Source of the DNA: Geobacteraceae bacterium
GTDB taxonomy: Bacteria; Desulfobacterota; Desulfuromonadia; Desulfuromonadales; BM103
NCBI GenBank assembly: GCA_024641085.1
Contig: JAHEDT010000029.1
Location: 1-39,074, forward strand
Direction: 5' to 3'
Length of the DNA stretch: 39,074 nucleotides
The stretch's first letter is position 1. Each line of letters starts with the position of its first letter. Position numbers and translations under genes: made by a program. Of this stretch, positions 317-33,103 are shown piece after piece. The notes beneath the pieces were generated by a model. It saw only the letters and a list, made by a program, of their open reading frames with translations, was not told where the DNA came from and searched no databases.

Positions 317-433
317 AATCCTAGTTTACTATGTGACTTGGTCAATCTTGGACCGCTGTCCGGTTTCGGGCCCCGTGTAGCTTGAACTATCATCTCTGGG
401 CTAATGCCGCCTTGTTCAGGGAGAGCAATTACG

Positions 434-1567
434 ATGAGCTATAAAAAGACCACAGAGAGCCTGGCAAGGCTAATGTTGGGCAAGAGTGTTGCCAACTCAA
501 TGATAGGGTATAAGGGTGAATTTACATTCAAAAAATATCGTCGCATCAGAGAGCGCATAAAAATGCTCAGAAAGGAGTCTGGGGAAAACACTGCCGTCCT
601 GAGAAATTTTCACGACCGGTGTATTGAGCATGTCCCCCTTGCGACGGTTCCGATTGTGCTGATTTCACAGATCCAACGTTCCGGCGGGTCCTTTTTAAGT
701 CAGCTTTTCGATGGGCATCAGGAAGTCCATGCTCACCCCCATGAATTGAAGATCGGCTATCCCAAGAAGCACATCTGGCCCGAACTTGACCTTAGCGACA
801 GTCCTCAGCATTGGTTCGAATTTCTTTTCGAAGACGATGTCATCCAGCATTTCAGGAATGGCTATAAAAAGGGGGACAAGTCTAATGAAGTCTTCCCTTT
901 CATTTTTTTGCCGTCTCTGCAAAAAAGGATCTTCCTAAACTGTGTCGCCTCAGTTAAAGATCCGATAAAGCCCAGAAATATCTTCGACGCCTACATGACG
1001 TCCTATTTTTATGCCTGGTTGAACAACCAGAATATTTGCGGGCGGAAAAAAATCATAACAGCCTTCACGCCAAGGTTGGCAATGTGTAGAGACAGTATGG
1101 ACACGTTTTTCCAGACCTACCCGGACGGTCGTTTGATATCCGTGATCAGAGATCCCAGGAACTGGTATCCTTCAGCCCTTCGGCACGAAAATAAGAAGAA
1201 CAAATATGACGACATGAGAAAGGCGCTGAGTCAATGGTCAGAAAGTGCACAAGCGGCGGCTTGGAACAAAGAAAAGTATGGACAGCGAGTTTGCATTGTC
1301 AGGTTTGAAGATTTGATCAGCAACACTGAAGCCGTGATGCGTTACCTCGCCGGTTTCCTTGATATCGAATTCGACGCTATTTTACTGACACCCACCTTCA
1401 ATAAATTCCCGATCGAGGCCAATACAAGTTTCAACTTGGAAAAACCAGGGATTATGACCAGTGCCCTGTCCAGATACAAATCTCTAACCTCAGAAGATCT
1501 GCAAGTTTTGGATGAAATGACGAGCTATGATTACAAGAAGGCTCTCGCCCATGCGATTGCATTTTAA
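434..1567 (+). CDS. Sulfotransferase family protein (PAPS-dependent)
   Basis: The product is 377 residues from the ATG at 434. This start is preferred over an in-frame ATG at 404 because AGGGAGA lies about 10 bases upstream. Residues 81-88 (QRSGGSFL) form a P-loop-like 5'-phosphosulfate-binding motif after a hydrophobic strand. IRDPRNW at 238-244 fits the 3'-phosphate-binding motif with conserved Arg and Ser. Sulfotransferases of this fold move sulfate from PAPS to hydroxyl groups of glycans or lipids. No signal peptide is seen, so it is probably cytoplasmic. By eye the gene is clearly AT-richer than the gene run to its right, which suggests separate acquisition. It converges with the lipid operon; whether it acts on that lipid is unknown. 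Confidence 0.75.
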   Translation: MSYKKTTESLARLMLGKSVANSMIGYKGEFTFKKYRRIRERIKMLRKESGENTAVLRNFHDRCIEHVPLATVPIVLISQIQRSGGSFLSQLFDGHQEVHAHPHELKIGYPKKHIWPELDLSDSPQHWFEFLFEDDVIQHFRNGYKKGDKSNEVFPFIFLPSLQKRIFLNCVASVKDPIKPRNIFDAYMTSYFYAWLNNQNICGRKKIITAFTPRLAMCRDSMDTFFQTYPDGRLISVIRDPRNWYPSALRHENKKNKYDDMRKALSQWSESAQAAAWNKEKYGQRVCIVRFEDLISNTEAVMRYLAGFLDIEFDAILLTPTFNKFPIEANTSFNLEKPGIMTSALSRYKSLTSEDLQVLDEMTSYDYKKALAHAIAF

Positions 1568-1675: not shown

Positions 1676-2476
1676 TCAAGGATGGTTTGTCATGGACCGC
1701 GATCGCCACTTCTGCAATTTGATGTTGGCCTTTTCCAGCTCCTCGGCTTCTTCAGGGAAGGTCACCGACAGGAGGACGGCACGGCCATATTGAACCTCGG
1801 CGTCTTCGCGGCGGTCCATTCGGTCATAAACCTTGGCCAGGTTGTAACGGTGCGCGATACGGTCGTGCAACTCAATGGCGTGCAGTAGAAGTTTTTCCGC
1901 CTCATCAAGCGACGCCTCGGGTAACCCGCCGTAAACGATATTGGCAAAGGTCCGGGCAAAAAAGCTCAGGTCAGAGATCTTGTAATGCCAGCGGCTCAGC
2001 ACGAGATAGGCAATGTCGTCGTCAGGAGCAAGGGCGATGGCTTTTTCGATATTATCCTTGATCTCCCTTGACTGTCGGACCTGGGTTTCCGTGTCGGTAT
2101 ATTTGGCTTGGCCTCCCAGTGCTATTGCCAACCATTTGTAGCCGTCACTTTTCTCGGGGGCTGCATGCATGGCGGCACGGGCGAATTGCTCCGCCTCCTG
2201 GAACAGCTCCAGAGCCTTTTCTTCGGGGTCAGCCAGGCGACCCATCTCGTAACGGGTTCGGGCCATTCGCCAAAGGAGCTCTTCTTGATCTTCGCTATTC
2301 TCGGTGTTCTCCTGGAGAAGATCCCAGGCCTGCTGGTTCTCGCCGAGGGCCAGCAGTTGATCGACCCTTTGGCAGATCGTCTCACAAGATGCCTGGCATG
2401 ACGAACTACCCAGGCCCTGAAGGGCGAGTAGTATTGTGGCCAATGTGGCTATCTTACAGAAAACCTTCATGTCCAT
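1676..2476 (-). CDS. Secreted TPR protein, RMD-like
   Basis: The product is 266 residues. Residues 1-29 form a signal peptide (Lys, then a long hydrophobic stretch, then SSCQA), so the protein is exported. The rest is helical with TPR-like repeats, and KAIALAPDD and HAIELHDR mark helix pairs. The stretch with IVYGGLPEASLDEAEKLL resembles the TPR domain of the regulator-of-microtubule-dynamics (RMDN) family and its bacterial relatives; this is from memory of the family. It starts 27 bp after the ABC exporter stop and is the last gene of the minus-strand run, so it is probably co-transcribed. A periplasmic scaffold role in lipid export is possible but unproven. An alternative start is the Met at codon 3. 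Confidence 0.7.
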   Translation of the reverse strand: MDMKVFCKIATLATILLALQGLGSSSCQASCETICQRVDQLLALGENQQAWDLLQENTENSEDQEELLWRMARTRYEMGRLADPEEKALELFQEAEQFARAAMHAAPEKSDGYKWLAIALGGQAKYTDTETQVRQSREIKDNIEKAIALAPDDDIAYLVLSRWHYKISDLSFFARTFANIVYGGLPEASLDEAEKLLLHAIELHDRIAHRYNLAKVYDRMDRREDAEVQYGRAVLLSVTFPEEAEELEKANIKLQKWRSRSMTNHP

Positions 2477-2503
2477 TGATCCATGATGATCAAAGCTGCC
2501 GGT

Positions 2504-4255
2504 TCAGGAGGATACTGATGCTTTTGATGCGGATCGAGTAGGCACCTGCACGATGTTTCCGTCAGAAATCTGGAAAACACGATCGGCAACATCGACCAGA
2601 GCCGTCTGGTGGCTGATTGCCAGTATCGTCAAATGTTTGCGCAGCTCCTTCAATGTCAGGCAGATCGCCGCTTCCGTTTTCGGGTCGAGGGCGCTGGTTG
2701 CTTCGTCGAGGATTAATAACTGTGGCCGGTGGATCAATGCCCTGGCAATCGCAATTCGTTGACGTTGCCCTCCCGAAAGCTTTGCCCCCCGCTCACCAAC
2801 TGTTGTGTGTACTCCCTCGGCCATTTCAGACACAAAGTCCCATGCTCCAGAAGCTTTAAGGGCATATTCCACATCGTCCACCGTCAGGGAAGGCTCGCCC
2901 AGGGTCACGTTAATAAAAATGCTGTCGTGCAGCAGGATGGTGTCCTGGGGAACATAGCCGATCATGTGTCGCCAGTAGCGCAGGTCAAGCTCGGGAAGGG
3001 GGATGCCATCGATCAGGACCGCGCCCTTCTGGGGATGGAAAAGGCCTGTTATCAGGTCGACCAGGGTAGTTTTCCCGGCGCCGGACGGGCCGATAATGGA
3101 CGTAAAGGTTCGGCTTGGAATTTCGAGAGAAACATTTTTCAGAACCAGGTGGTCATCACCATAGCCGAAATCAACCTGGTCGAAGGTGATCGCCTGTTCC
3201 AGGGTCGCCTTGATCCCCCCTCCCGGTGGTTCCTTGTACTTCTGGGCTGTGGTGATCTTTTCCTGAAGCGACCAGTAGGCGCTTTCACAAATCGCGACTT
3301 CCTGCATTTTGCGCTGGACCTTGCCGGCCTCGTTTAGCATGCGCGACATGAGAAAGATCAGCATCATGGCCTTGGGCGGGTCCATTTTCATTTGAATGAG
3401 CATCACATAGAGCCCGATGATCACGACCAGGGTCAGTAAAGGCTCCTGGATGCCTCGCAGGGCGGCTTTACTGAAAACCTGTCGGCGCAGGGCTTTCCTC
3501 AGCTGTGTTGTGTTGGTCGACAGAAGCTCTTCGGCAAGGTACTCCCGCCCCATCGCCTTGTAGGCCTTCAAGGAATTGAGGCTGTCCGACAGTCTGGCGA
3601 GCAGCGATTTCAGGAGGCGGGTCTGCTTCTTACCAGCGCGTCGCGACTTGGCGACCATCTTGTACAGCATGAGCAGAATCAGGGCGCCAATGCTGATGAA
3701 GATCAGGGTCGTTTGCCATGAGACCAATAGGGCGACGATGAAATAGGCAAAAGCCTGGATAATCATGGCCACGGCCGTGGCCGCGTGGAGGTAGCCATTC
3801 GCTGACCTCATCACCTCTGTTCCGGCGGCATTGGCCATACTGCCTACCTGCTGGCCGAGTAAATATCCCCAACGGGTTGACAGCAGGGCGCGTAACAGGG
3901 CCAGGCGCAGATCGGTGGCCACATGAGCGACTGTATAACCGATCTTGCGGTCGGCAACCAGAATCAGGAGGCTTCTCAGGACGGCCCCGACCATGATAAC
4001 CACCAGCAGCCAGCCGATCGTCGAGGGAATGCCGAAAAAGGCCAGGACCGTGTCGATCACCTTGTCCGAGGCTGAGACCGAGGCGGCTGCAGGTTTTGCC
4101 GCAGCGGCGCCCAAAGGCAGATTGATGGCTTTTTTTAGAAGGGGCAGGAGAGCCGTCAAACCGACCCCTTCGATAATCCCGGCCATGACCAGCGCTAACA
4201 GCATGGTCAGGCTTTGCCTGGGGTAGGAACGGGCGTATTTAAGAATCAGTCGCAT
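2504..4255 (-). CDS. ABC exporter, fused membrane and ATPase domains (MsbA-like)
   Basis: The product is 583 residues, the usual size of a half-transporter. An N-terminal membrane domain (about 1-320) holds six predicted helices, with an Ala-rich loop at 45-63 between the first two. The ATPase domain follows, with Walker A GPSGAGKTT (389-397), signature LSGGQ (493-497), Walker B LLILDE (513-518) and a downstream H-loop His (AISHQ). Proteins of this type flip lipids, lipid-linked glycans or peptides across the inner membrane. It lies downstream of SPT, ACP and HAD genes on the same strand, so a sphingolipid or its intermediate is the best substrate guess (inference). The start ATG follows AAGGATATCG. 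Confidence 0.85.
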   Translation of the reverse strand: MRLILKYARSYPRQSLTMLLALVMAGIIEGVGLTALLPLLKKAINLPLGAAAAKPAAASVSASDKVIDTVLAFFGIPSTIGWLLVVIMVGAVLRSLLILVADRKIGYTVAHVATDLRLALLRALLSTRWGYLLGQQVGSMANAAGTEVMRSANGYLHAATAVAMIIQAFAYFIVALLVSWQTTLIFISIGALILLMLYKMVAKSRRAGKKQTRLLKSLLARLSDSLNSLKAYKAMGREYLAEELLSTNTTQLRKALRRQVFSKAALRGIQEPLLTLVVIIGLYVMLIQMKMDPPKAMMLIFLMSRMLNEAGKVQRKMQEVAICESAYWSLQEKITTAQKYKEPPGGGIKATLEQAITFDQVDFGYGDDHLVLKNVSLEIPSRTFTSIIGPSGAGKTTLVDLITGLFHPQKGAVLIDGIPLPELDLRYWRHMIGYVPQDTILLHDSIFINVTLGEPSLTVDDVEYALKASGAWDFVSEMAEGVHTTVGERGAKLSGGQRQRIAIARALIHRPQLLILDEATSALDPKTEAAICLTLKELRKHLTILAISHQTALVDVADRVFQISDGNIVQVPTRSASKASVSS

Positions 4256-4384
4256 CGATATCCTTGTGTTGCCACGGCAATTCGAAAGCCCGGAAACTCA
4301 GGGCACATGCCAATGACAGGGGACGTGAAAAAATATGCGCTGCTGCCGAAAACGGCACGGGCCGCAGCGGAAAGATCGAGTCGC

Positions 4385-5047
4385 TCAAGACAAACTGGCC
4401 ACCAGAGCGGAAAGACCGCGCAGATCTTCTACAAGCAGGTCATTCTCCATGACTTCAGGTGCCGTTCCCCTGGCGACTATGGCTACGAAATGACAGCCGA
4501 ACTGTTGCGCTCCCCGCAAGTCGTCAAGCTGGTCGCCGACATGGACCATTTCGTGTCTGGCGGCACCGCAGGCACTGGCAATATCCTCAAGATTTCCCGC
4601 CTTGGAGCCTTCCGCACCGTATACGGTCTGAAAAAAGTGACTCCAGTTACGAAGTTCCAGTATGCGACGCAGTGGTCCGGCTGGTGTCCCCGAGTTGACG
4701 TACAGCAGCAGTCCCATTGCGGTCAGGTCCCGGAGAGCCTGGCTGGCACCGGGCCTTTCCGGGCACCTGGTGATAGCATTTTCACAGCTCGTGGTGTAGT
4801 CCTCGGCCAAACGCTGACTCCATGTCTCTACACAGGAGTCTACCGGAAGCAGCTTTCTGCTGATCAACGCTTCGGCTATTTTACGGGTCTTCCCGTAGCG
4901 ATCGGCAGTGGGCCAGCGCAGAAATACTTCATCGACAACCTGGCCTGATGCGTCCCAGGGTTGAGCGATCTCAAAAAAAGTTTCCCTCTTGATATCGTTG
5001 GAATCTACCAGGGTTCCATCGAAATCAAAGACGACACATTTGATCAT
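4385..5047 (-). CDS. HAD-superfamily phosphatase, phosphoglycolate-phosphatase-like
   Basis: The product is 220 residues. Motif I is DFDGTLVDS (residues 8-16, nucleophile Asp8 and acid/base Asp10). Motif II is SG at 119-120, a Lys at 149 fits motif III, and motif IV is GDQLDD (171-176). A helical cap (about 18-90) makes it a C1-cap HAD like Gph. Such enzymes dephosphorylate small phosphoesters. It starts 79 bp after the SPT stop, with AGGAAG as ribosome-binding site, inside a lipid operon. It might act on a phosphorylated headgroup or lipid precursor, but it could also be a general housekeeping phosphatase. A 129-bp gap with no other gene separates it from the ABC exporter. Confidence 0.8.
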   Translation of the reverse strand: MIKCVVFDFDGTLVDSNDIKRETFFEIAQPWDASGQVVDEVFLRWPTADRYGKTRKIAEALISRKLLPVDSCVETWSQRLAEDYTTSCENAITRCPERPGASQALRDLTAMGLLLYVNSGTPAGPLRRILELRNWSHFFQTVYGAEGSKAGNLEDIASACGAARHEMVHVGDQLDDLRGAQQFGCHFVAIVARGTAPEVMENDLLVEDLRGLSALVASLS

Positions 5048-5126: not shown

Positions 5127-6326
5127 TCAGGCTTGTTCAGGGGCGGTTATCAGCGGCTGGATCTCGGCAAAGATCTGCAGGATGCGGTCCACTTGCTCGG
5201 ACGTATGGGCCGCGCTGATACTGCAGCGCAGCAAACTCATCCCTGCGGGCGCGGCAGGAGGGAAAACCAGGTTGACGTAGACCCCCCGGTCGAGAAGTTC
5301 TTTCCAGGCGAACAACGTCTTCTCCCGGGTCGGGACACGAACCGCGACAACCGGGCTGAGGTCCGGACCGAGTTCATAACCCAGCTTCTCGAGCCCCTGG
5401 TACATCCGCGTCGCATTTTCCCAGAGCCTGGTACGCAGTTCCGGTCTCGACTGAATGACCCGCAAGGCCTGGCGAACAGAGGCAATGGTCGAGGGTGACG
5501 GCGAAGCGGTAAACACATAAGAGCGACTGACGTAGCGGACCAGGTCCAGTTCCGGGTGGTTACTGACACAATAGCCGCCAATGGCTCCCAGGCTTTTGCT
5601 GAATGTGCCTACGATGAAATCAACATCCCGTTCCACACCGGCAGCTTCGGCCATTCCACGACCCCGTTCACCCAAAACACCCATGGAGTGGGCCTCGTCG
5701 ACCAGCAGCCAGGCCCCGTAACGCCTCTTGAGGGCAGCAATATCCGCCAGAGGAGCACAGTCGCCCAACATGCTGTAAATCCCTTCGACGATAATCAGGG
5801 TATTGGCGGCACGCGATCCCAGACGCTGCATCTTCTTATCCAGATCGGCCACGTTGTTGTGGCGGAAGCGGATCATCTCTGCGCCGCTCATCCTGCAGGC
5901 ATCGTAGATGCTTGCATGAGAGTCGGCGTCCAGTACAATGACGTCGCCCGGTCCGGCAAGGGTGGATATGACGCCGAGGTTGCTGACAAAACCGGTTGAG
6001 AAGACAATCGCATTGCTGCATCCGTAGAATTGGGCCAACTCGCGCTCGAGTTCACGATGCCCGGCAAAAGTGCCGTTGGCCATGCGTGAACCGGTCGTGC
6101 CGGTCCCTTCAATCAGCAAGGTCTCACGGGCGGCGTCTATACACTGTCGGTCAAAGGTCAGGCCAAGGTAATTATTGGTCCCGGCAAGAATGACGCGGCG
6201 TCCGCCAATTGAAGCCTCAGTAGAAGAATAGATCTCGTCGATGACCACATTGAAGGGGTCGACCCCTGGTGGGAGCAACGTTTTCCGGGTTTCAGCGATC
6301 GTATTTAATTTGTCGAGAAGTCCCAT
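5127..6326 (-). CDS. spt: Serine palmitoyltransferase-like alpha-oxoamine synthase
   Basis: The product is 399 residues, a PLP enzyme of fold type I. TFSKSLGAIGG places the PLP-binding Lys at 244. DEAH at 210-213 binds the cofactor, and His137 (in DADSHASI) stacks on it. GTGTTGSRMANGT (75-87) is the version of this loop seen in serine palmitoyltransferases and KBL, unlike the one usual in BioF. The reaction would be decarboxylative condensation of an amino acid, probably serine, with an acyl thioester to give 3-oxo-sphinganine. Its ATG overlaps the last base of the acyl carrier protein stop (TAATG), suggesting translational coupling and an acyl-ACP donor. BioF or a cysteate-using sulfonolipid enzyme are alternatives; context favours sphingolipid. 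Confidence 0.82.
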   Translation of the reverse strand: MGLLDKLNTIAETRKTLLPPGVDPFNVVIDEIYSSTEASIGGRRVILAGTNNYLGLTFDRQCIDAARETLLIEGTGTTGSRMANGTFAGHRELERELAQFYGCSNAIVFSTGFVSNLGVISTLAGPGDVIVLDADSHASIYDACRMSGAEMIRFRHNNVADLDKKMQRLGSRAANTLIIVEGIYSMLGDCAPLADIAALKRRYGAWLLVDEAHSMGVLGERGRGMAEAAGVERDVDFIVGTFSKSLGAIGGYCVSNHPELDLVRYVSRSYVFTASPSPSTIASVRQALRVIQSRPELRTRLWENATRMYQGLEKLGYELGPDLSPVVAVRVPTREKTLFAWKELLDRGVYVNLVFPPAAPAGMSLLRCSISAAHTSEQVDRILQIFAEIQPLITAPEQA

Positions 6327-6580
6327 TAACGGTCCCCAATAATTACTTGAATTTGCGTGACAAAATCTTTTACCGTCCTTAAATCCGACAATGAGTTCAA
6401 CGGGTAGCTGATATCGAACACATCTTCGACATCGTTCAACATTTCCATGACTCTCAAAGAGTCGAAGCCCAGGTCGTTGATCAGTTCGGTCTCGTCCTGA
6501 ATCGGCCCCGGCTGAGGGGCATATTCCTGAAGCAGAACGACAACTTTCTGGAAAATGGTCTCATATTGCGAGTTGGTCAT
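6326..6580 (-). CDS. Acyl carrier protein dedicated to the sphingolipid operon
   Basis: The product is 84 residues. The ATG at 6580 has GGAG about 11 bases upstream; a longer reading from an upstream TTG has poorer support. LGFDSLRVMEM carries the phosphopantetheine-attachment Ser41 in the DSL motif, and the protein has the usual acidic four-helix ACP pattern. It would carry the fatty acyl chain loaded by the FAAL-type ligase encoded upstream and pass it to the SPT-like enzyme, whose start overlaps this stop by one base. In Caulobacter an ACP gene next to spt is needed for ceramide synthesis, so this neighbour pattern is established there. Confidence 0.9.
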   Translation of the reverse strand: MTNSQYETIFQKVVVLLQEYAPQPGPIQDETELINDLGFDSLRVMEMLNDVEDVFDISYPLNSLSDLRTVKDFVTQIQVIIGDR

Positions 6581-6656
6581 TATTGTGCTCACTCCATTTG
6601 CTGAAGATATTTTTTGCAAACTTGAACGAGAGCCGTTGGCAACAGCCCTGGCCTGG

Positions 6657-7586
6657 TTATTGGCCCTTTGAAAACAGGCGTTTCATCCCCTCATGGAATT
6701 GAACCTGCGGCTGCCAGTCGATTGCCCTGGAGATCGCGGTATTATCGCAAACCCAGTCTGGATGGAAGATTTCCCTGACCTTCCCGGGAGTCAGCATCGG
6801 CTGGTAGCCAAACAGCCGACCCAGAGAAACGTTGGCCGAACCGGCAATCTGCATCAATAGCTTGGGGATCGATAAACAGCGGGGCTCTCTGCCATTGAGA
6901 TGAGCAGCAATCGTCGCGATTTGAGGCCAAGTATAACCATCCGGGCGCCCGTCATGCAACTCAAAACATCGGCCATTCTCGCCCTGCGGCGCTCTCAGCA
7001 GGCAACTCACCGCTTCCGCCAGGTCGTCAACGTATAACAGCGAGAACCTGGCGTTTTTTTCACCGATGATGGGAACGATACCACGCTTGATCAGCTGCAG
7101 TAATGGCTGCATCTCCCGGTCACCAGGGCCATAAACAGCCGGTGGGCGCAAGATATCCCAGGACAGCCTACCTTGATAAGCGCGAAGCTCGTCTTCACCT
7201 AATTTCTTGCTTGCCGCATAGGCCGACAGTGAGGGCTCGCGGGCGGCCAGTGAAGACACCAGCAGAAAGCGAGGGACCTTATGCTCAGCCGCCGCCTTCA
7301 GCATGTTAGAAACACCCGTGGTATTGACCCTTTTGAACTGTTCCAGGGTGATGCCGCGCACGGCTCCGGCACAGTGCACGATTGCATCAACACCGGTGAC
7401 AAGGGCGCTCAGGCTGTTTACATCCTCAAGGTTGCCGGGCTGCCATTCAACTGATTCGAGTGGATGGGGAGCAGATGTAGAGGTGGGGCGGTATAAGGCT
7501 CTGACCTGTACGCCTTGGGATAGCAAATGCGTGAGCAGAGTGCTACCGATGAATCCTGTTGCCCCTGTGAGCGCTACAGTGGTCAC
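6657..7586 (-). CDS. NAD(P)-dependent reductase/epimerase, CerR-like
   Basis: The product is 309 residues of the extended short-chain dehydrogenase family. Residues 8-14 are GATGFIG, the Rossmann nucleotide-binding motif. The catalytic set is Ser111/112, Tyr123 and Lys127 in YAASK. Relatives are annotated as NAD-dependent epimerases or 3-beta-hydroxysteroid dehydrogenases. In Caulobacter the equivalent gene between ACP and acyl synthetase, cerR, reduces the 3-oxo group of a ceramide intermediate, and the same position here suggests the same reaction. The start is a GTG with a weak ribosome-binding site, 36 bp after the ligase stop, so expression probably depends on read-through from that gene. 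Confidence 0.78.
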   Translation of the reverse strand: MTTVALTGATGFIGSTLLTHLLSQGVQVRALYRPTSTSAPHPLESVEWQPGNLEDVNSLSALVTGVDAIVHCAGAVRGITLEQFKRVNTTGVSNMLKAAAEHKVPRFLLVSSLAAREPSLSAYAASKKLGEDELRAYQGRLSWDILRPPAVYGPGDREMQPLLQLIKRGIVPIIGEKNARFSLLYVDDLAEAVSCLLRAPQGENGRCFELHDGRPDGYTWPQIATIAAHLNGREPRCLSIPKLLMQIAGSANVSLGRLFGYQPMLTPGKVREIFHPDWVCDNTAISRAIDWQPQVQFHEGMKRLFSKGQ

Positions 7587-7622
7587 GATGGCGATCGTTT
7601 TGGAGAAATTATAGAGACAATT

Positions 7623-9455
7623 CTACTGCGCACGCCTTTGTCCGGTCTCTGCAATACGCAAAACAGGCGTATTCACAAACATGGACGGATCCTCAGAGGA
7701 TTCCAATTGCTGCAGTGACTTCTCTGCCTGACGCTTCAGATAATCGCGCTGCGTACCTGCACGGGACAGCTTGCCAGAAGAAGTCCGGGGGAGGGTGTGT
7801 GCGGGGACAAGTTCGATGATGCAGTCTATACCCAGTTCCTCGCGTACGATGCGGGCAATCCGGCTCGACATCTCACGGCGTTTGCCTTCTTCCGTCTCAC
7901 GGTACTGGACCACCAAGACAGCTTTTTCTGAACCATCTTCAGCCGGGACAGAGATCGCCGAAGCATCGCCAGGCCTGATTTCCGGCTGCTGCTCGGCGTA
8001 GAACTCGAGGTCCTGGGGCCAGATATTGCGTCCGTTGATGATGATCATGTCCTTTTCACGTCCGGTGATAACCAGAGTCCCTTGGTCCAGGTACCCGATA
8101 TCACCTGTGTTCAGCCAGCCATCAACGGAAAGTATCTCGGCAGTGGCGGCGGGGTCACCGAAATAGCCACTCATTACGCTCGGCCCGCGGACGTGAATTG
8201 TGCCGCATTGCCGATCCGGCAGGGCTTGGCCATACTCATCCCGGACCAGGACTTCGTGTCCGGGTAGCGGAGCTCCGCAGTTAACCAGCTTTTTGGTACG
8301 GCGAGCTTGGTCGTTACGGTCAGGCGTTTCGGTGACGGGGAGAGCTTCCTGCCGTTCGGATAGGTGGTCAGCGTCTATTTCGTCGACAATCGCCCCTTGG
8401 TCCAGCTGAGCAAAACTGATGGCCAGCGAACATTCTGCCATGCCGTAACTGGCGACAAAGGCCGTGTGGTTGAATCCATAAGGGGCCAGTTTTTCGGCGA
8501 ATGCCTCTAAAATTTCGGCACGGATCGTTTCGGCCCCAACTCCGGCAACCCGCCAGGCGCTCAGATCGAGTGGCACGGTTTCGTCATAACGAATCCGTCT
8601 TGTGCACAATTCATAACCAAACGGAGGACCGAAAGAAATAGTGCTTCGATTCCGGGTCATCAAGCTCAGCCAAAGGCGAGGCCGCATGGCGAAGTCGCGG
8701 GTCGATAGATAATCAACGGAAAGCTGTGAAGCCAGAGGTGCCAGGACGAATCCGACCAGGCCCATATCATGGTAATAAGGCAGCCAGGAAACACACCTGT
8801 CACCACTGCGGACCTTGAGGCCGTCCCTGGTGATACCAGCAAGGTTATGCATCACGGCGGCTTCGCTGACCATCACCCCCCTCGGGAAACGGGTGCTGCC
8901 CGAAGTGTACTGGAGGTAAGCGGTCTCTTCCGGCTGCAATGGAAACAGCTCGACGGATTGTTCGGCAAGTTGATCAAAATCATCCGGCTGACCGACAAGC
9001 TTCAATCCCAAGCCGCTGCTCGCCTCAAGCAGGAAGGTTAAAAATTCAGCAGGTGCGACGGCAACCGCTGCCTGACTCTTAATCAGCAAGCCACGCAGCT
9101 GTTCGACATAGGCCTTGTGTCCACCCAGGTGAATCGAGGCCGGAAGCGGTACCGGTGTATATCCAGCATATTGGCAGGCAAAAAAGAATCGCGGAAAGTC
9201 AGGATTGGTCTCCGCGATTATGGCCACCCGGGCGCCTCTTTCCAAGTGGAGACCAAGTAGTCTTTTTGCCAGGGTCTGAGCCCCTTCGCGGAGTTTCGAA
9301 TAAGTGAGTACAGTGCGGAGTTCTCCCCGCCCATTGTAGAAATTAAACCCACTTGTCCCCTGGGCAGCATAATCCAACGCTTCTGCCAGATTGGGAAAGT
9401 CGGCGGTTCTAAGGGGAACCTGGCTTTCGGTCGATGTCGGGTTGAGAGGGTTCAT
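7623..9455 (-). CDS. Fatty acyl-AMP ligase / acyl-ACP synthetase
   Basis: The product is 610 residues of the ANL superfamily. YTSGSTRFPRG (183-193) is the phosphate loop, LPYYHDMGLVG (225-235) is typical of fatty acyl-AMP ligases, YGMAE is the A5 motif, and NTGDIGYL and GREKDMIIINGRN are A7/A8. Lys562 in SSGKLSR is the catalytic A10 Lys. These enzymes activate a fatty acid as acyl-AMP and load it on an ACP, here presumably the ACP encoded two genes downstream. As first gene of the minus-strand run it sets the direction of the operon. A roughly 50-residue tail after Lys562 is somewhat longer than usual. It has no membrane segments and is cytoplasmic. Confidence 0.87.
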   Translation of the reverse strand: MNPLNPTSTESQVPLRTADFPNLAEALDYAAQGTSGFNFYNGRGELRTVLTYSKLREGAQTLAKRLLGLHLERGARVAIIAETNPDFPRFFFACQYAGYTPVPLPASIHLGGHKAYVEQLRGLLIKSQAAVAVAPAEFLTFLLEASSGLGLKLVGQPDDFDQLAEQSVELFPLQPEETAYLQYTSGSTRFPRGVMVSEAAVMHNLAGITRDGLKVRSGDRCVSWLPYYHDMGLVGFVLAPLASQLSVDYLSTRDFAMRPRLWLSLMTRNRSTISFGPPFGYELCTRRIRYDETVPLDLSAWRVAGVGAETIRAEILEAFAEKLAPYGFNHTAFVASYGMAECSLAISFAQLDQGAIVDEIDADHLSERQEALPVTETPDRNDQARRTKKLVNCGAPLPGHEVLVRDEYGQALPDRQCGTIHVRGPSVMSGYFGDPAATAEILSVDGWLNTGDIGYLDQGTLVITGREKDMIIINGRNIWPQDLEFYAEQQPEIRPGDASAISVPAEDGSEKAVLVVQYRETEEGKRREMSSRIARIVREELGIDCIIELVPAHTLPRTSSGKLSRAGTQRDYLKRQAEKSLQQLESSEDPSMFVNTPVLRIAETGQRRAQ

Positions 9456-9897
9456 TCGTGACCTAGAGATAAAGCAATAATAATGCCAATATATAGAAGG
9501 GCGTATACATGGGGTCGCCCTCAGTTACTGGTCGGCATAAGGTGCAAATGTGCAACAATTTCACCACATCACTGTGGATTTATTGCTACATACGGCATCT
9601 GCAAACTGCAAAATAATACAGCGTGCGGCTTATTCAACCAAGCCAAATTACTGAAATGAAGAGTAAAAGTCAAACAAAAGCTGCGCTATGAAAAGAAAAT
9701 TGTCGTCGTTACGAATCTTGTGCTTGAACAAACAGCCAAACCTTGATATCGGGCTCTAAAAACTCCTCTGTGAGGCTATTCAACATCGAACCTTAAGACC
9801 CGCGCTCCCGAAAAGATTGCACCCAGAAAGAAAACTTCCTGTGCAAAGCCATAATTTCTGTTGCGTCGTGTTCGAAAAATCACAGACTTCTCAGCAA
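9456..9897. other. AT-rich upstream region of the lipid operon, no gene seen
   Basis: The promoter of the minus-strand lipid operon should lie here, because no gene precedes the ligase. No convincing -35/-10 pair was found. A duplicated TTGCAC word (9539-9554 on the minus strand) could be a regulator site, but nothing supports that beyond the repetition. Short open frames here have no coding character. Confidence 0.5.
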
Positions 9898-10268
9898 AAC
9901 AAAGGTTAGCCACTAAGTCACCAAGGCGCGAAGCAATCACTGTTATTGCAGAGCAAGATACACCCTTGCTTGGCCTGATCAATTGATCTTAACCTGAATT
10001 GTTGAGATGGTTAATTCCCCGCAGCCAGCTGCGCAATGAATAGGGTGCATTTTGGTTCACGCCTTAAATTAAAGAAATCCAGTATCCATAATCCAGAATC
10101 CGGAATGAGTCCCGATTGCCAGGTAGCCCCGCGCGTTTTTTCTGTCTTCTGGATACTGAATTCCGGATCCCCCAGGGCTTGCCGTGGGGTAGCTCATTCC
10201 CGCGTCCTTTTTTTAGCGCCTTCGTGTATTCGTGACAAGTATCACCTTTTTGTGGGTTATAGAAACGG
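9898..10268 (+). repeat. Repeat family B, copy 1, interrupted by repeat family E
   Basis: The left part (9898-10002) and the right part (about 10203-10268) match, in order, the continuous sequence at 25490-25656. Shared words include AAAGGTTAGCCACTAA, ACACCCTTGCTTGGCCTGA and GATCTTAACC on the left, and TCCTTTTTT plus TTCGTG.CAAG on the right. The roughly 200 bases between the two halves are a copy of the family E repeat. The arms are imperfect inverted repeats, so the intact element would fold as a long hairpin. Confidence 0.8.
10001..10200 (+). repeat. Repeat family E, copy 1 (about 200 bp, MITE-like)
   Basis: This is one of three same-orientation copies (others at 13168 and 32903), and the most diverged. 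Shared landmarks are TTCCCCGCAGC near the left end, GAATCCAG and CCAGAATCCGGAAT in the middle, then TCTGGATACTGAATTC, and a GC-rich right hairpin around GCTTGCCGTGGGG. It has no real gene; a minus-strand frame through it gives a spurious peptide. It lies within a family B repeat. No target duplication could be seen. Confidence 0.8.
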
Positions 10269-10355
10269 AAAATTATTCCTGAATATCGGGCCTGTGGATC
10301 CAGAACCGGTTCGCTTGAGAGGATCTCTGGCGAAACGAGTCCAGCCGTTCTTGTG

Positions 10356-10793
10356 CTACTTCCCGGTGAAAATCTGCTGCAAAGCCATGTGCAGACTCTG
10401 ATCCAGCTTTTGTCCGGTTTCGTTAGAGTAAGAGAGGTCCGGAGGGCCGGGCCAGCCAGGATCGATAAATTCCTGACGGCCAAAAGTGCGTGACGCCGCA
10501 TAACGTGGCAATACGTGGAAATGAACGTCATGATCAACCATCATCAACATGAGATAATTGATTTTGTCGTAAGAGAAGCATCGCTTCAAATGGTTTTCTA
10601 TGGCTGTGGTTATCTCTTTTAGTTCCGAAAAAGCGGCCGCACTTATCCGGGAAAAGGTGTCCGCTTCGTTTTTGCAGATCAGGACCAGTGCGCCCAGGGT
10701 GGCCTGCTGGGGGCGCAGTAACAAGGCCCAATGTTCATACTCCTGGATCAATGTTCCCGGGTAGCCGAATTTTTTCATCGTGGCATTCGTCAT
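10356..10793 (-). CDS. HIT family protein (histidine-triad nucleotide hydrolase)
   Basis: The product is 145 residues, the normal length for a single HIT domain. The ATG follows a near-perfect TAAGGAGG six bases upstream. The triad region reads DHDVHFHVLPRY. The last two His of the H-x-H-x-H triad, including the nucleophile position, are present, but the first is replaced by Asp, with a His just before it. HIT enzymes hydrolyse or transfer nucleoside monophosphates from dinucleotide or sugar-nucleotide substrates. It is divergent from the CerS-like/nucleotidyltransferase pair and lies between the two halves of the lipid locus, so a link to headgroup nucleotides is conceivable but unproven. 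Confidence 0.8.
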   Translation of the reverse strand: MTNATMKKFGYPGTLIQEYEHWALLLRPQQATLGALVLICKNEADTFSRISAAAFSELKEITTAIENHLKRCFSYDKINYLMLMMVDHDVHFHVLPRYAASRTFGRQEFIDPGWPGPPDLSYSNETGQKLDQSLHMALQQIFTGK

Positions 10794-11161
10794 GATCGTC
10801 CTCCTTAAATGTGACCGGTTGTTTGTCTCCGGTGCTGGCTACGGTTTGCTGGATCCTATTGCGGGGTCGTTTTTCGGCCTGATGATTGGCTGATGATACT
10901 GATCGATGTGAATCGTTATGATAGTCGCCTTCACAATGGCCTGCGTGTGTTCTTTGAAAATATTGGTCTGTTGCGCCTTGCCCATGATTCAAAAACTCAA
11001 AATGGCCCGAATGGGCAGGCATAAATGGCTTACATACAGGCAGAGGATCGGTTATGATTCAAAGCGGCCATTGCATGTTGTGGTCAGCAGAGACGGACCC
11101 TTTCTCTGGCCGCTTTAGGATTTGAAATCTCTTCACCTTAATATACCTGCCGAGCCATACA
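10794..11161. promoter_or_regulatory. Divergent intergenic region with a 10-bp inverted repeat
   Basis: This gap separates the HIT gene (-) and the CerS-like gene (+), so it must hold both promoters. The clear structural element is AAAGCGGCCA at 11061-11070, paired perfectly with TGGCCGCTTT at 11107-11116, 36 bases apart. It ends about 45 bases before the + strand start codon. It could be a leader hairpin or a regulator site. No confident -35/-10 boxes were found. Confidence 0.4.
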
Positions 11162-12331
11162 ATGCAAAGTCGAGGACATTCAGAAAAGCACCACCAGCAA
11201 TCGTTACGGGTTGTCCCAGTTGCCGGGCGCCGTCCGATGCGCAACTTTATTAAAATGCCCTGGTCGCTCTATGCAGACGATCCCTGTTGGGTCCCCCCGT
11301 TGATTATTGAAAGACAGTGGCACCTATCAAAGAAAAATCCCTACTTTGAGCACGCTGATTTCCAAGCCTGGATTGCCTATCGTGGAGAGCGAATGGTCGG
11401 GCGGATCAGCGCCCAGGTCGATCAGATGCATTTGCAGAAATACCAGGACGCGACCGGGTTTTTTGGTTTCCTGGAAGCAGAAGACGATCCTGAAACCTTC
11501 CGTGGCTTGTTCGAGTCCGCTGAAGAATGGCTGCGCCAGAAAGGTATGCAGCGAATCCGCGGGCCGTTCAACCTCTCAATCAACGATGAATGCGGCTTGC
11601 TGGTTGAAGGCTTTGACAGCCCGCCTCCGATCATGCTGGGGCACGCTCTTCCGTATTATGGCCCGCGCGTGGAAGAGCAGGGGTACGCCGGAGAGCAGGA
11701 TCTCCTGGCTTATCGGGCTCACCCCGACATTGCCCCTCCTCGTCAGCTCGAGGCCCTGAGCAAACGGGTGGCCGGAAGGGTTACGGTTCGTACCATGCGG
11801 CGTGATCGCTTCAATGAGGAGCTGGAGATCATCCGTGACATTTTTGAAGATGCCTGGTCGGAAAACTGGGGATTCATTCCCTTTACGCCCGCCGAGTTCG
11901 CTGAACTTGGGAAAAACCTCAAATTCCTGGTGGACTCAGAGTCGGTCAGGATTGCCGAGCTCGATGGAGAACCGGTGGCCATGATCGTCATGTTCCCCAA
12001 CATTAACGAGGCCATCAGGGATTTGAACGGCCGCCTGCTGCCTTTTGGTTGGCTGAAGCTGCTCTGGCGCCTGAAAGTCGTTGGTCTCAAGTCGGCGAGA
12101 ATCCCGCTGCTCGGCGTCAGGCGCAGCCATCAAGGGGGCCTGCTGGGGGCGGCACTCGCTCTTATGGTGATTGCCCCGCTCCACGTGAAAGCGCGCAAAC
12201 AGGGTATTATGGAAGTGGATATGTCCTGGATTCTCGAGCAGAACCAGGGGATGCGCAAAATCACCGAATCTGTGGGCTGCGATCTCTACAAGCGCTACCG
12301 GATTTACCAGAAGGATTTAACCACAGCATGA
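11162..12331 (+). CDS. Large GNAT-type N-acyltransferase, candidate ceramide synthase
   Basis: The product is 389 residues, much longer than a single-domain GNAT (about 150). The N-terminal motif FIKMPWSLYADDPCWVPPL and the block GPFNLSINDECGLLVEGFD (from residue 134) followed by PYYG mark a distinct family within the acyl-CoA N-acyltransferase superfamily. A second GNAT-like half follows, with VEMDMSW-like strand (EVDMSWILEQNQ) and a conserved NQGMRKITESVG near the end. To my knowledge the bacterial ceramide synthase of Caulobacter belongs to this superfamily, so N-acylation of the sphingoid base is the favoured role here. It overlaps the next gene by 4 bases (ATGA). The ATG at 11162 has no good ribosome-binding site, so the true start may be slightly downstream. 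Confidence 0.65.
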   Translation: MQSRGHSEKHHQQSLRVVPVAGRRPMRNFIKMPWSLYADDPCWVPPLIIERQWHLSKKNPYFEHADFQAWIAYRGERMVGRISAQVDQMHLQKYQDATGFFGFLEAEDDPETFRGLFESAEEWLRQKGMQRIRGPFNLSINDECGLLVEGFDSPPPIMLGHALPYYGPRVEEQGYAGEQDLLAYRAHPDIAPPRQLEALSKRVAGRVTVRTMRRDRFNEELEIIRDIFEDAWSENWGFIPFTPAEFAELGKNLKFLVDSESVRIAELDGEPVAMIVMFPNINEAIRDLNGRLLPFGWLKLLWRLKVVGLKSARIPLLGVRRSHQGGLLGAALALMVIAPLHVKARKQGIMEVDMSWILEQNQGMRKITESVGCDLYKRYRIYQKDLTTA

Positions 12332-13143
12332 AATCGACAGGCCAGCCTTATTGCGCGGTCATTCTGGCCGCTGACCGTGACATTAACGACCCGGTCGCCA
12401 ATGCTGCCGCGGTGAGCTGCAAGGCCCTGGCGCCGGTCTCCGGGCGGGCCATGGTTTTGCGTGTTCTCGATGCCCTCGCGGACGCCCGCGAAGTCGGCGT
12501 TCGGATTCTGGTTGGCCCAGCGATGACTTCGGTCGAGCAGAATGACGAACTTGCCGGTCTGGTTCGCTCCGGCCAGGTTCAGTGGGTTGCTCCGCAAAGC
12601 ACTCCGAGTTCAAGCGCCTTCAGTGTTTTACAGACTTTGCCGAACGATGTCCCGGTACTGCTCACGACCGCCGATCATGCCCTGTTGTCAGCAGCTGTGG
12701 TCGATCATTTCTGCACCATGGCCCGCAGCAGCGGTTGCGATGTCCTGGCCGGGGTAGCCCGGCATGAACTGGTTGCAGAGGCTTTCCCAGGCACCCGCAG
12801 GACCGTCACCAGACTCAAGGATGGAGGCTACTGCGGTTGCAACCTGTTCGCATTTATGACCCCGCAAGCCCGCAAAGCTGCAGATTTCTGGCGTAAGGTG
12901 GAAACGGAGCGCAAAAAACCCCTGCGGGTTGTGAAGGTTATTGGTTGGGTCGCCGTGCTCCGCTACCTGCTCGGACAGTTGACTCTAGGCCAGGCTCTGA
13001 GTCGGTTGTCGCAAAGAATGAATCTCCAGGCCGGGGCCGTCCAGATGCCCTTTGCCGAGGCTGCGGTCGATGTCGACAAGGTCGATGATTGGTTGCTGGT
13101 CGAGTCTGTCCTGGCAAAAAGACAAGCAGAGGCACCTCAATAA
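12328..13143 (+). CDS. Nucleotidyltransferase / GT-A-fold protein (MobA-like NTP transferase)
   Basis: The product is 271 residues from the ATG overlapping the previous stop codon (ATGA). The start CAVILAADR is a variant of the LAGG-type NTP-binding loop, with the usual Gly pair altered, followed at some distance by a conserved Lys (CKALAPV). LLTTADHALL has the Asp at the metal-binding position of NTP_transf_3 proteins, and DVDKVDDW near the end fits the second metal site. Such proteins join a nucleotide to a phosphorylated small molecule. Its coupling to the candidate ceramide synthase suggests activation of a polar headgroup, for example as a CDP derivative; that is inference. The altered glycine loop leaves some doubt about catalysis. 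Confidence 0.65.
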   Translation: MKSTGQPYCAVILAADRDINDPVANAAAVSCKALAPVSGRAMVLRVLDALADAREVGVRILVGPAMTSVEQNDELAGLVRSGQVQWVAPQSTPSSSAFSVLQTLPNDVPVLLTTADHALLSAAVVDHFCTMARSSGCDVLAGVARHELVAEAFPGTRRTVTRLKDGGYCGCNLFAFMTPQARKAADFWRKVETERKKPLRVVKVIGWVAVLRYLLGQLTLGQALSRLSQRMNLQAGAVQMPFAEAAVDVDKVDDWLLVESVLAKRQAEAPQ

Positions 13144-13167: not shown

Positions 13168-13373
13168 GTTCAATCGACGAGAGGGTTGATTCCCCGCAGC
13201 TTGCTGCGCCATGCATTGATTTGCGTTTGGTTGATGCCTTATTGAGGGAATCCAGTACCCGGAATCCAGAATCCGGAATAAGTTCCTTCCACCAGATGGG
13301 TTCACGAGTTTATTCTGTCTACTGGATACTGAATTCTGGATACCCCGTGGCTTGCCGCGGGGCAGTTCATTCG
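13168..13373 (+). repeat. Repeat family E, copy 2
   Basis: This is the cleanest copy. It starts with GTTCAATCGACGAGAGG, then CCCCGCAGCTTGCTGCG, which folds as a small hairpin. It has inner words ATCCAGTA/TACTGGAT and CCAGAATCCGG/GAATTCTGG in opposite orientation. It ends with CCCGTGGCTTGCCGCGGGG, also a hairpin, then GTTCATT. It fills the 298-bp gap between the nucleotidyltransferase and azlD stops. The minus-strand frame across it is a repeat-derived artefact. Confidence 0.85.
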
Positions 13374-25489: not shown

Positions 25490-25656
25490 AAAGGTTAGCC
25501 ACTAAAGACACCAAGACACGAAGCAATCTCTGGTATTACTTAACAAGCAACACCCTTGCTTGGCCTGACAAATCGATCTTAACCCTGAATATTGTCCTTT
25601 TTTGTGTCTTTGTGTCTTCGTGGCAAGCATCTCTTGTTTGGTGGGTACAGAATCGT
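25490..25656 (+). repeat. Repeat family B, copy 2 (uninterrupted)
   Basis: This matches the two separated halves found at 9898-10002 and 10203-10268. Left arm GCCACTAAAGACACCAAG is inverted to CTTTGTGTCTTCGTGGC on the right (about 25608-25624). It has no coding character, although a plus-strand frame runs through it. Confidence 0.8.
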
Positions 25657-25998: not shown

Positions 25999-27318
25999 AT
26001 GAATCGTCACGCGTTGCGGTTAACAGTGATGTCGCTGATCGGACTTATGTTAACCGGGGTGCTCCTGATCGCCAGCCCGCTGCATGCTGAGGGTCTCGAT
26101 CAGCTGGTCAACGAGGCCCTCAGCAGTAATCCCGACCTGGCGGCCGCCAGGGCCAGATGGCAGCAGTTTACTTATCAGGCTCCCCAGGTCGGCAGCCTCC
26201 AGGATCCGGAGCTTTCCTTTACATTTTCCAGTTATCCGAATGACACCCTGGCAAGCGATGAGACGCCGATGACCGGTAATGAACTGAGGCTTGCTCAGAA
26301 GTTCCCCTTTCCTGGCAAGCTGGCTGGACGGGCTGATCTCTCCAGAGAGCAGGCTCGCTGGTTCGAAGCTGTCTACCGCGACCAGCATTACCAGATCGCC
26401 CGCAAGGTCAAGGACGCCTGGTACCGACTCAATTTCAACCAGCAGGCGGTCAAGGTCACCGAGCGCAACCTGGCTCTGGTCGATGATATCATTCGCTTGA
26501 CGGAAGTCCGCTACGAAACCGGGTCCGGACTGCAGCAGGATGTGCTCAAGTCGCAGGTGAAGCGGTCCCAGTTCATGGAACGGCTGATGTCCTTGCGCCA
26601 ACAACAAGCCGTGATCCAGTCTGAACTCAATCGCCTCACCAACCAGCCTGCAAATGCGACCTTCGAACTGCCCGGAGATCTCGACCTGGTGAAAACCGAC
26701 AAGAGTCTGGAAGATTTCAAGCGGGCCGCAGCTGAACAGCGCCCCATGAACGATGCTTACCAGTCACTGATCAGGCGTTACGGCTACCAGGGGCAGCTGG
26801 CGGACCTTGATGACTACCCCGATGTGACCCTGTTTGCCAGCTGGCGGTACCGTGATAATAACCTGCCCGATGGCGGCACCGATTTCATCAGCGCCGGTGT
26901 CAGCATCAACCTGCCAATTTACCGGGACAAGCGTCGGGCTGCCAAAGCTGAGGCGCGGGAGGCAGTGCACATGGCCGAGCGCCAGGCGCAAGAATTCCGC
27001 AACAGCGTCGTGGAATCGATTCAGAATGCCTATGCGCGCATGGAAGAAACCCGCCAGCAGGCCGATCTCTACCGCATGGGGATCATTCCCCAGACCAGCC
27101 AGAGCTTTCAGTCGGCTCTCAGCTCATACCAGGTCGGCAAGCTCGAGTTCATCAGCCTGCTGGATGCCCTGATGTCAACCTACCAGGCAGAGATGGATTA
27201 CTACCGCATCAGCGCCGACTACATGCGCAGCCTGGCCTGGCTCGAGGCTGAATCGACCCTGCCGCTGATCGGCCCGCCGCTGCAGATCGATCGAAAAAAC
27301 ACCGATACCATCAACTAA
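25999..27318 (+). CDS. TolC-family outer-membrane channel (CusC-like)
   Basis: The product is 439 residues. A signal peptide ends at about residue 31 (IASPLHAEG). The rest is long alpha-helical with two outer-membrane efflux protein repeats; the segment NPDLAAARARWQQFTYQAPQVG and the later GVSINLPIYRDKRRAAKAEA are typical. It forms the outer-membrane channel of a tripartite efflux pump with the adaptor and RND genes that follow. The adaptor starts 28 bp downstream. The ribosome-binding site is AAAGGA. In many such operons this gene comes first, as here. Confidence 0.88.
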   Translation: MNRHALRLTVMSLIGLMLTGVLLIASPLHAEGLDQLVNEALSSNPDLAAARARWQQFTYQAPQVGSLQDPELSFTFSSYPNDTLASDETPMTGNELRLAQKFPFPGKLAGRADLSREQARWFEAVYRDQHYQIARKVKDAWYRLNFNQQAVKVTERNLALVDDIIRLTEVRYETGSGLQQDVLKSQVKRSQFMERLMSLRQQQAVIQSELNRLTNQPANATFELPGDLDLVKTDKSLEDFKRAAAEQRPMNDAYQSLIRRYGYQGQLADLDDYPDVTLFASWRYRDNNLPDGGTDFISAGVSINLPIYRDKRRAAKAEAREAVHMAERQAQEFRNSVVESIQNAYARMEETRQQADLYRMGIIPQTSQSFQSALSSYQVGKLEFISLLDALMSTYQAEMDYYRISADYMRSLAWLEAESTLPLIGPPLQIDRKNTDTIN

Positions 27319-27346
27319 TCGTTTTACACGGGATTTCGAGGACACC

Positions 27347-28921: not shown

Positions 28922-28961
28922 AAAGATGTTAACTACCAACCTTTTACATTTCACATTTAAC
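28901..28961 (+). repeat. Imperfect inverted repeat at the cusB end
   Basis: Left arm AAAGTGAAAAGTAAGAAG continues to GATGTTAAC at 28933. Right arm CTTTTACATTTCACATTTAAC (28941-28961) is roughly its reverse complement. The left arm encodes the last residues of the adaptor (KVKSKK and stop). It resembles GTGAAAAGT-type repeats found in intergenic DNA of related genomes. Confidence 0.5.
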
Positions 28962-28971
28962 AGGAATTATC

Positions 28972-32902: not shown

Positions 32903-33103
32903 GTTCAATCGACGAGAGGTGTGATTTCCCGCAGCTTGCTGCGCCATGCATTGATTGACGCTTTGCGCCTTATTGTGGGAATCCAGTAACCTGAATCCAG
33001 AACCCGGAATAAGTCCCGACTGCCAGGTGGGTTCGCGAGTTTTTTCTGACTTCTGGATACTGAATTCTGGATACCACGTGGCTTGCCGCGGGGCCGTTCA
33101 TTA
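32903..33103 (+). repeat. Repeat family E, copy 3
   Basis: This has the same orientation and order of landmarks as the copies at 10001 and 13168: GTTCAATCGACGAGAGG, CCCGCAGCTTGCTGCGCC, ATCCAGTAA, TTCTGGATACTGAATTCTGG, GTGGCTTGCCGCGGGG. The left flank AGCCACAAAAGAACGCAAAG looks like an arm of yet another palindromic repeat, so this copy too may sit inside an older repeat. Confidence 0.85.

Follow-up and report, generated by a model that had tools for sequence, protein, structure and literature searches.

A probable AcpR/AasR-dependent ceramide-synthesis locus with a candidate sphingolipid exporter in a Geobacteraceae bacterium

The window considered here is the whole 39,074-nucleotide stretch (contig JAHEDT010000029.1, positions 1 to 39,074, assembly GCA_024641085.1) from a Geobacteraceae bacterium. 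It carries what is very probably a complete AcpR/AasR-dependent ceramide-synthesis locus, where completeness refers to the ceramide part of the pathway. All five ceramide genes are present and linked, namely those for a fatty acyl-AMP ligase or acyl-acyl carrier protein (acyl-ACP) synthetase of AasR type, the ceramide reductase CerR, the specialised acyl carrier protein (ACP) AcpR, the serine palmitoyltransferase (SPT) Spt, and the ceramide synthase CerS. At the level of sequence, the gene identities, their linkage and their co-occurrence are firm. A sequence-only reading of the window had proposed a ceramide-like lipid made by the bacterial route; the five genes match the Caulobacter set, and the product is what we infer from their sequences. 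Pathways of this type have been described before, and the most useful lead is an ABC exporter encoded beside the ceramide genes.

The ceramide genes of C. crescentus and E. coli BL21 are given in the part of PMC9386255 used here as aasR, epi, acpR, spt and aca/yghO. A single Caulobacter vibrioides contig (L095; compared genomes, compared loci and contigs of the window's own assembly are cited by G, L and C numbers, respectively) holds homologues of seven window genes within about 13 kb, with identities of 57% for SPT, 46% for the ligase, 39% for CerR, 38% for the ACP, 52% for a HIT-family protein, 47% for the GNAT protein CerS and 35% for a nucleotidyltransferase. Consequently, the grouping of the window genes is not a matter of chance. 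The minus-strand arm is transcribed in the order ligase (7623..9455), CerR (6657..7586), ACP (6326..6580, from its likely ATG), Spt (5127..6326), HAD-family phosphatase, ABC exporter and TPR protein, with intergenic gaps of 36 bases between ligase and CerR, 79 between Spt and HAD, 129 between HAD and ABC, and 27 between ABC and TPR. The reductase and ligase were thus found upstream of spt on the same strand, as the sequence-only reading had stated, and the one-base overlap of ACP and SPT that it had noted is a base shared by the ACP stop TAA and the SPT ATG (TAATG). CerS (11162..12331) and the nucleotidyltransferase lie on the plus strand, divergent from the ligase-to-TPR arm. The extent proposed earlier, 5127-13143, contains the ceramide genes and leaves out the HAD-ABC-TPR extension at 1676-5047; likewise, the five ceramide genes were named in that account, and the HIT and nucleotidyltransferase genes were not.

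Spt (399 amino acids) is predicted to be an AcpR-dependent serine palmitoyltransferase of proteobacterial type, condensing serine with acyl-ACP. With 634.8 bits it clears the cut-off of 500 set for NF047599, the serine palmitoyltransferase model of NCBIfam, and its best solved relatives in a search of the Protein Data Bank (PDB) are the Sphingomonas SPTs (447.9 bits for 2x8u). Residues K244, H137, D210 and H213 align with K265, H159, D231 and H234 of 2jg2, and we take them to be the pyridoxal phosphate (PLP) lysine and the active-site histidine and aspartate residues. The two features on which the earlier assignment had been based are in place: Lys244 lies inside VGTFSKSLGAIGGY, and the GTGTTGSR loop begins at residue 74. 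Because the Pfam family is common to the alpha-oxoamine synthases, Spt might instead be a BioF/Kbl-type or cysteate-using enzyme in an operon that does not serve sphingolipids. This is extremely improbable, given that the BioF model yields 343.8 bits, below its cut-off of 426.45 (NCBIfam), that the PDB entry for a cysteate acyltransferase reaches 191.5 bits against 447.9 for the Sphingomonas SPT, and that the neighbouring genes match a ceramide cluster. Model scores and a tree had also been suggested as a check on grouping with BioF; once run, they placed Spt above the SPT cut-off and apart from BioF/Kbl, so the BioF/Kbl assignment was rejected. In this 94-row tree, which left out cysteate enzymes, 12 BioF/Kbl rows split from the SPTs with a support of 100; NCBIfam scans gave six of these rows their label, five above the BioF cut-off and one above the BioF/Kbl-family cut-off. 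Six rows from the family or from Desulfuromusa join window Spt in one clade (100), which is nested in a set of 46 SPT rows from the same phylum and from gammaproteobacteria (98). The SPT and ABC trees were both built by a quick method, with long branches flagged, and their support values are to be read in that light.

Two points temper the ceramide assignment. The position of R378 in the Sphingomonas enzyme, an arginine with a presumed functional role, is Phe355 in window Spt and Leu in C. vibrioides, and the amino acid used by Spt may be serine, alanine or another. A sphingolipid-like variant can be envisaged, in which Spt would use alanine or another amino acid and give rise to 1-deoxyceramides or sulfono-lipids. 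A sulfotransferase-like gene lies nearby, and PMC11334938, in the portion used here, treats other Spt substrates as possible and suggests Desulfobacterota and/or Bacteroidota as potential sources of 1-deoxyCer and sulfono-1-deoxyCer in the upper euxinic Black Sea. Nevertheless, the variant is improbable, since Spt scores far above the cut-off of the serine palmitoyltransferase model and finds its best match among solved structures in the Sphingomonas SPT.

CerS, the large GNAT-type acyltransferase that had been placed near the SPT gene, is predicted to be a bacterial ceramide synthase responsible for N-acylation of the sphingoid base. Since its Pfam GNAT score falls just under the cut-off (19.8 versus 20.7 bits), sequence similarity and fold were used to test the assignment. 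Over about 96% in each case, CerS shares 47% identity with the GNAT encoded in the C. vibrioides sphingolipid cluster and 47.7% with E. coli YghO, whose gene lies beside spt; an alignment of 30 also bears on the assignment. The predicted AlphaFold model (mean pLDDT 90.7) has a tandem-GNAT fold and matches tandem GNATs, the top PDB match being 2wpw (E 3.6e-15, TMq 0.58). In the part of PMC9386255 used here, the N-acyltransferase is CC_1154 in C. crescentus and yghO in E. coli BL21. ABC, CerS and CerR were followed in ten of the 22 family genomes, comprising the seven that are SPT-positive and three of the 15 that are SPT-negative; CerS occurs in 7/7 of the former and 0/3 of the latter. A wider comparison drew on 84 loci (L052-L135), made up of the best 80 of 539 by similarity to window SPT and four plasmid stretches. 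The 63 of these that span at least 15 kb are referred to below as long loci, 21 shorter ones being dropped, and CerS is present in 48 of them.

The ligase scores 803.8 bits against a cut-off of 600 (NCBIfam NF006624) and, besides its 46% identity to the C. vibrioides ligase, keeps the motifs YTSGSTRFPRG and GKLSR. The ACP is recognised by Pfam PP-binding (36.1 bits) and a GFDSL site. The listed reading frame opens at TTG 6619 and encodes 97 amino acids, while an internal ATG at 6580 gives 84; the latter is the more likely predicted start because the ACPs of relatives have 84 amino acids. CerR, an NDUFA9-like short-chain dehydrogenase/reductase, scores 102.8 bits with Pfam Epimerase, its PDB matches include complex I NDUFA9 subunits, and it retains the NAD motif TGATGFIG and the YxxxK motif as YAASK. 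It is 39% identical to C. vibrioides CerR, with gene order shared, and orthologues at 65-71% occur in the family relatives G008, G018, G019 and G020. One observation counts against the proposed pathway: G009 and G015, whose assemblies are 99 and 98% complete, carry Spt and CerS and show only 33-35% CerR matches, not an orthologue. In these two genomes the ligase, ACP, Spt and CerS genes are present and the CerR orthologue was not found. Another reductase may act in place of CerR there, or the product may be left oxidised.

The order of the steps and the roles of the ABC, TPR, HAD, HIT and nucleotidyltransferase genes are, like the product, what we infer. The ligase would charge the dedicated ACP with a fatty acid, and Spt would condense the acyl-ACP with serine to give 3-oxo-sphinganine. 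CerS would then attach the second acyl chain and CerR would reduce the ketone; the order of these two steps is disputed, and PMC11087976, in the part used here, argues for acylation first, with CerR in the periplasm. Most likely, the MsbA-type ABC exporter with the TPR protein would flip the sphingolipid, whether complete or only partly built, across the inner membrane. A second LptF/LptG pair, on contig C87, would draw it towards the outer membrane as a dedicated Lpt-like bridge.

Transport is where the locus may add most. The sections of the 2024 Caulobacter paper used here (PMC11324152) call the inner-to-outer membrane transport of bacterial sphingolipids unknown. They map five ceramide genes, six genes for the phosphosphingolipid CPG2 and four transport genes (LptC2, LptF2, LptG2 and the flippase CC_1166), the role of the last four in sphingolipid transport being a proposal only. 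The window ABC gene (2504..4255, minus strand; Pfam ABC_membrane and ABC_tran) encodes an exporter of MsbA/HepA type. It fails the cut-off of the NCBIfam MsbA equivalog model (251.8 bits against 602) and was rejected as MsbA proper; its top NCBIfam score is that of HepA, the heterocyst exporter, at 305 bits, far under the cut-off of 725. Linkage and co-occurrence give about even odds that the spt-linked ABC exporter is a sphingolipid flippase. Orthologues at 71-76% identity were found in all seven SPT-positive family genomes and in none of the three SPT-negative ones (E 1e-60). Ten of 13 phylum relatives have a homologue at 45-50% close to spt, 8-173 bases away in the nine measurable phylum loci; in 13 gammaproteobacterial loci whose ABC gene is full-length, the distance is 12-1563 bases. 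The TPR gene (1676..2476, minus strand; Pfam RMD1-3, 66.2 bits), whose product has a hydrophobic N-terminus as judged by eye, follows the ABC gene in all five relative stretches holding ABC (L154, L158, L159, L161 and L162). Among the matches listed in searches of literature titles and abstracts, no report of an MsbA-type ABC gene at spt was found.

The distribution of exporters also suggests that the ABC gene stands in for the Caulobacter flippase. Ten of the 63 long loci have the ABC gene (at least 44% identity), 26 have a flippase of CC_1166/E. coli type, none has both and 27 have neither (Fisher p = 0.004 for loci that are related to each other, with kinship uncorrected). Replacement of LptF/LptG by the ABC exporter was ruled out because all ten ABC-bearing long loci keep LptF and LptG. 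A plasmid of Pseudomonas veronii offers the cleanest contrast: in its cluster, which resembles that of E. coli, ABC comes directly after spt and no match to the flippase was found, and the plasmid SPT is placed as sister to those of E. coli and Klebsiella (support 100). Exporters that track spt and apparently replace the CC_1166 flippase would be a concrete candidate for moving sphingolipids to the cell surface. The seven SPT-positive genomes have an extra LptF/LptG pair; G001 has one as well, and G004 and G007 do not. In the window genome it lies on C87, and LpxC is present.

Several observations weigh against the flippase assignment. The exclusion largely follows lineage and offers one clean sister-group contrast, and the 27 loci with neither gene weaken it. 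The spt-linked ABC proteins fall on one side of a branch supported at only 80, and that of P. veronii is placed apart from the remaining gammaproteobacterial ones, on a long branch. In G001, where Spt, CerS and ABC found no match, LptF2/LptG2-type genes are present; this assembly was not accepted as a clean SPT loss, being 87% complete and with its CC_1152, LptG2, CC_1158 and CC_1159 matches reaching a contig end. Finally, in G009, G015 and G018, the three relatives whose spt and ABC are on one contig but not in the layout of the window, the two genes lie about 7-12 kb apart with sugar genes between them, and the ABC could therefore serve a glycan. The ceramide genes may act as stated while ABC-TPR exports another surface glycan or glycolipid and owes its link to spt to a shared island of envelope genes. 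Besides the HepA score, this is favoured by the position of the G015 ABC directly after a NeuB-type sugar block and by the presence of NeuB and HAD on the spt or ABC contig in G008, G009, G018 and G020, and of NeuB in G019. However, no sugar genes accompany the window ABC, which comes after spt and HAD on their strand, the NeuB block of the own genome lies on C99 beside RecG without ABC-TPR, ABC comes directly after spt in phylum relatives and P. veronii, and its co-occurrence with SPT is 7/7 versus 0/3. Export of another glycan is thus somewhat unlikely, at clearly less than even chances, and the sphingolipid flippase is kept as the preferred role.

A more elaborate proposal, and a doubtful one, extends the flippase assignment. 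ABC-TPR would form a module dedicated to exporting sphingolipids that bear a headgroup, and this module and the Wzx-type flippase CC_1166 could functionally substitute for each other; in this family the stretch between spt and ABC would be a variable headgroup cassette, of NeuB type in relatives and reduced to HAD alone in the window. If so, the nonulosonic-acid (sialic-acid-like) genes of the relatives would make surface glycosphingolipids resembling gangliosides. NeuB-type and CMP-activated sugar genes lie downstream of spt in G008, G009, G015 and G018, and NeuB is near spt or the ABC-TPR pair in L153/L154 (G015), L158 (G018), L159 (G009), L161 (G020) and L163 (G008). Two NeuB architectures, with a SAF or a cupin domain, occur among the family relatives. 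Because relatives carry these sialic-acid-like sugar genes near spt, a decorated (nonulosonic-acid) glycosphingolipid is possible; no report of a bacterial sialylated sphingolipid was found among the matches listed for literature titles and abstracts. The window HAD gene (4385..5047, minus strand; Pfam Hydrolase, 65.7 bits) finds 58-67% matches in the clusters of five relatives (L153, L158, L159, L161 and L163) and is 58-65% identical to the HAD after NeuB in G008, G009, G018 and G020; a PDB sequence search gave no match at 1e-6.

For a phosphorylated headgroup, the own assembly contains CC_1152-like (54%, on C87), CC_1153-like (in the window), LptF2-like and LptG2-like genes. A search of the own assembly with the G015 proteins for two members of the CC_1158-1161 set, the CC_1160-type ceramide kinase and the CDP-alcohol transferase CC_1159, gave no match, and this may reflect an assembly gap, as C87 ends just after LptG2. 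With CC_1160 and CC_1159 not found, the bacterium is not claimed as a CPG2 producer; the CC_1158-1161 set does lie on the spt contig in G009, G015 and G018. The sulfotransferase-like gene (404..1567, plus strand; Pfam Sulfotransfer_3, 53 bits) stands tail to tail with the TPR gene and has a guanine-plus-cytosine fraction of 0.456 against 0.55-0.56 for the neighbouring TPR and ABC genes. A 25%-identical sulfotransferase follows TPR in one relative, L158, and no match at 1e-5 was found in the compared SPT loci outside the window. Its link to the lipid is uncertain, and a sulfated sphingolipid was set aside as no more than a hint.

The remaining two cluster genes also have counterparts in Caulobacter. 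The HIT-family gene (10356..10793, minus strand; Pfam HIT, 23.5 versus 21.5 bits) lies between the two arms and is 52% identical to the HIT gene of L095, to which CC_1157 corresponds. HIT matches occur in the window, G008 and G019 and were not found in the stretches compared from G009, G015 and G018; in the long loci HIT is present in 22 of 63, with CerS in all 22. In the part of PMC11324152 used here, CC_1157 and CC_1167 are judged probably unrelated, and CC_1157 mutants are noted to lack high cofitness with the Caulobacter sphingolipid cluster. The HIT gene may thus have a functional tie to the cluster, linkage speaking for it and the published cofitness data against, and its presence in the window bears on the judgement of CC_1157. 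The MobA/CofC-like nucleotidyltransferase gene (12328..13143, plus strand; CC_1153-like; Pfam NTP_transf_3, 41.1 versus 27 bits) overlaps the cerS stop by four bases with its ATG. It is directly 3' of cerS in 31 of 37 loci under a strict distance rule; the other six pairs fail the rule, five by overlapping more than 60 bases with the chosen start and one through a gap.

The nearest named records among the matches listed are two Deltaproteobacteria metagenome-assembled genomes (MAGs) and a Desulfuromusa MAG. An SPT orthologue is found in 6 of 21 other family genomes (81-84% identity in the largest piece), so that SPT is either patchy or partly lost to incomplete assemblies, and 14 of 297 sampled phylum genomes, the own included, exceed the NF047599 cut-off. 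The part of PMC9386255 used here describes the AcpR/AasR ceramide type from alpha-, beta- and gamma-proteobacteria, groups delta-proteobacterial SPTs such as that of Myxococcus with Bacteroidetes ones and mentions three myxobacteria with distant AcpR and AasR homologues; Spt-like genes are reported from 38 phyla, Desulfobacterota included, in the part of PMC11334938 used here. The extension of range is therefore modest. A full AcpR/AasR-type ceramide system would now be placed in a Desulfuromonadales-like bacterium, a less expected lineage.

Other features of the window include an interspersed repeat of about 200 nucleotides at 10004-10198, 13168-13371 and 32903-33102. It occurs in at least 40 places in the own genome (89 candidates) and in seven in the same-genus G001, with one short match in G015 and none in G008 or G009; it had no match among plasmids and was rejected as a plasmid element. 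Two copies bracket HIT-CerS-nucleotidyltransferase and two on C87 precede CC_1152-LptF2-LptG2, and on this basis recombination between repeats may have split the sphingolipid cluster in the window species. An 80-nucleotide direct repeat pair lies at 9915-9994 and 25505-25584 (83% identity). At 25999-32196, an outer-membrane efflux protein, a CusB/HlyD-type membrane-fusion protein with heavy-metal-binding domains and an RND pump form what looks like a metal efflux operon.

Four known systems come closest to the window, one of them being the Bacteroidetes-like (CFB-type) loci of the same phylum. In the phylum loci L022-L051 the flank is about 1.5 kb, and a missing gene means one not within it. 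CerR, SPT and CerS are adjacent in 17/17 CFB-type loci, and ACP, ligase and ABC are unmatched within that flank in 17/17; their SPTs are about 40-45% identical, fall outside the window Spt clade and do not form one clade. The CFB label comes from NCBIfam scans of 3 of the 17 loci, with scores of 564-576 that lie below the model cut-off of 640. Gammaproteobacterial (mostly Halieaceae) and same-phylum loci have spt and ACP in common with the window, as well as an ABC exporter at 45-50% identity; in the gammaproteobacterial ones, however, ABC is mostly upstream of ACP-spt, and HAD and TPR matches were not found. The yghO-spt cluster of E. coli and Klebsiella has the order ligase-CerR-ACP-Spt with yghO (CerS) divergent, as in the window, but LptF/LptG, a Wzx-type flippase and yghS/yghT adjoin it, and HIT, nucleotidyltransferase and ABC matches were not found in the stretch. 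The Caulobacter cluster CC_1152-CC_1168 differs in that the window has MsbA-type ABC, TPR and HAD genes after spt and no CC_1166-type flippase match found, that the own assembly gave no match to the ceramide kinase or CC_1159, and that cerS and LptF2/LptG2 of the window genome are on separate contigs. The two nevertheless share the five ceramide genes, the ligase-CerR-ACP-Spt order, the HIT gene and CerS followed by the nucleotidyltransferase, and the window genome holds CC_1152 and an LptF2/LptG2-type pair elsewhere.

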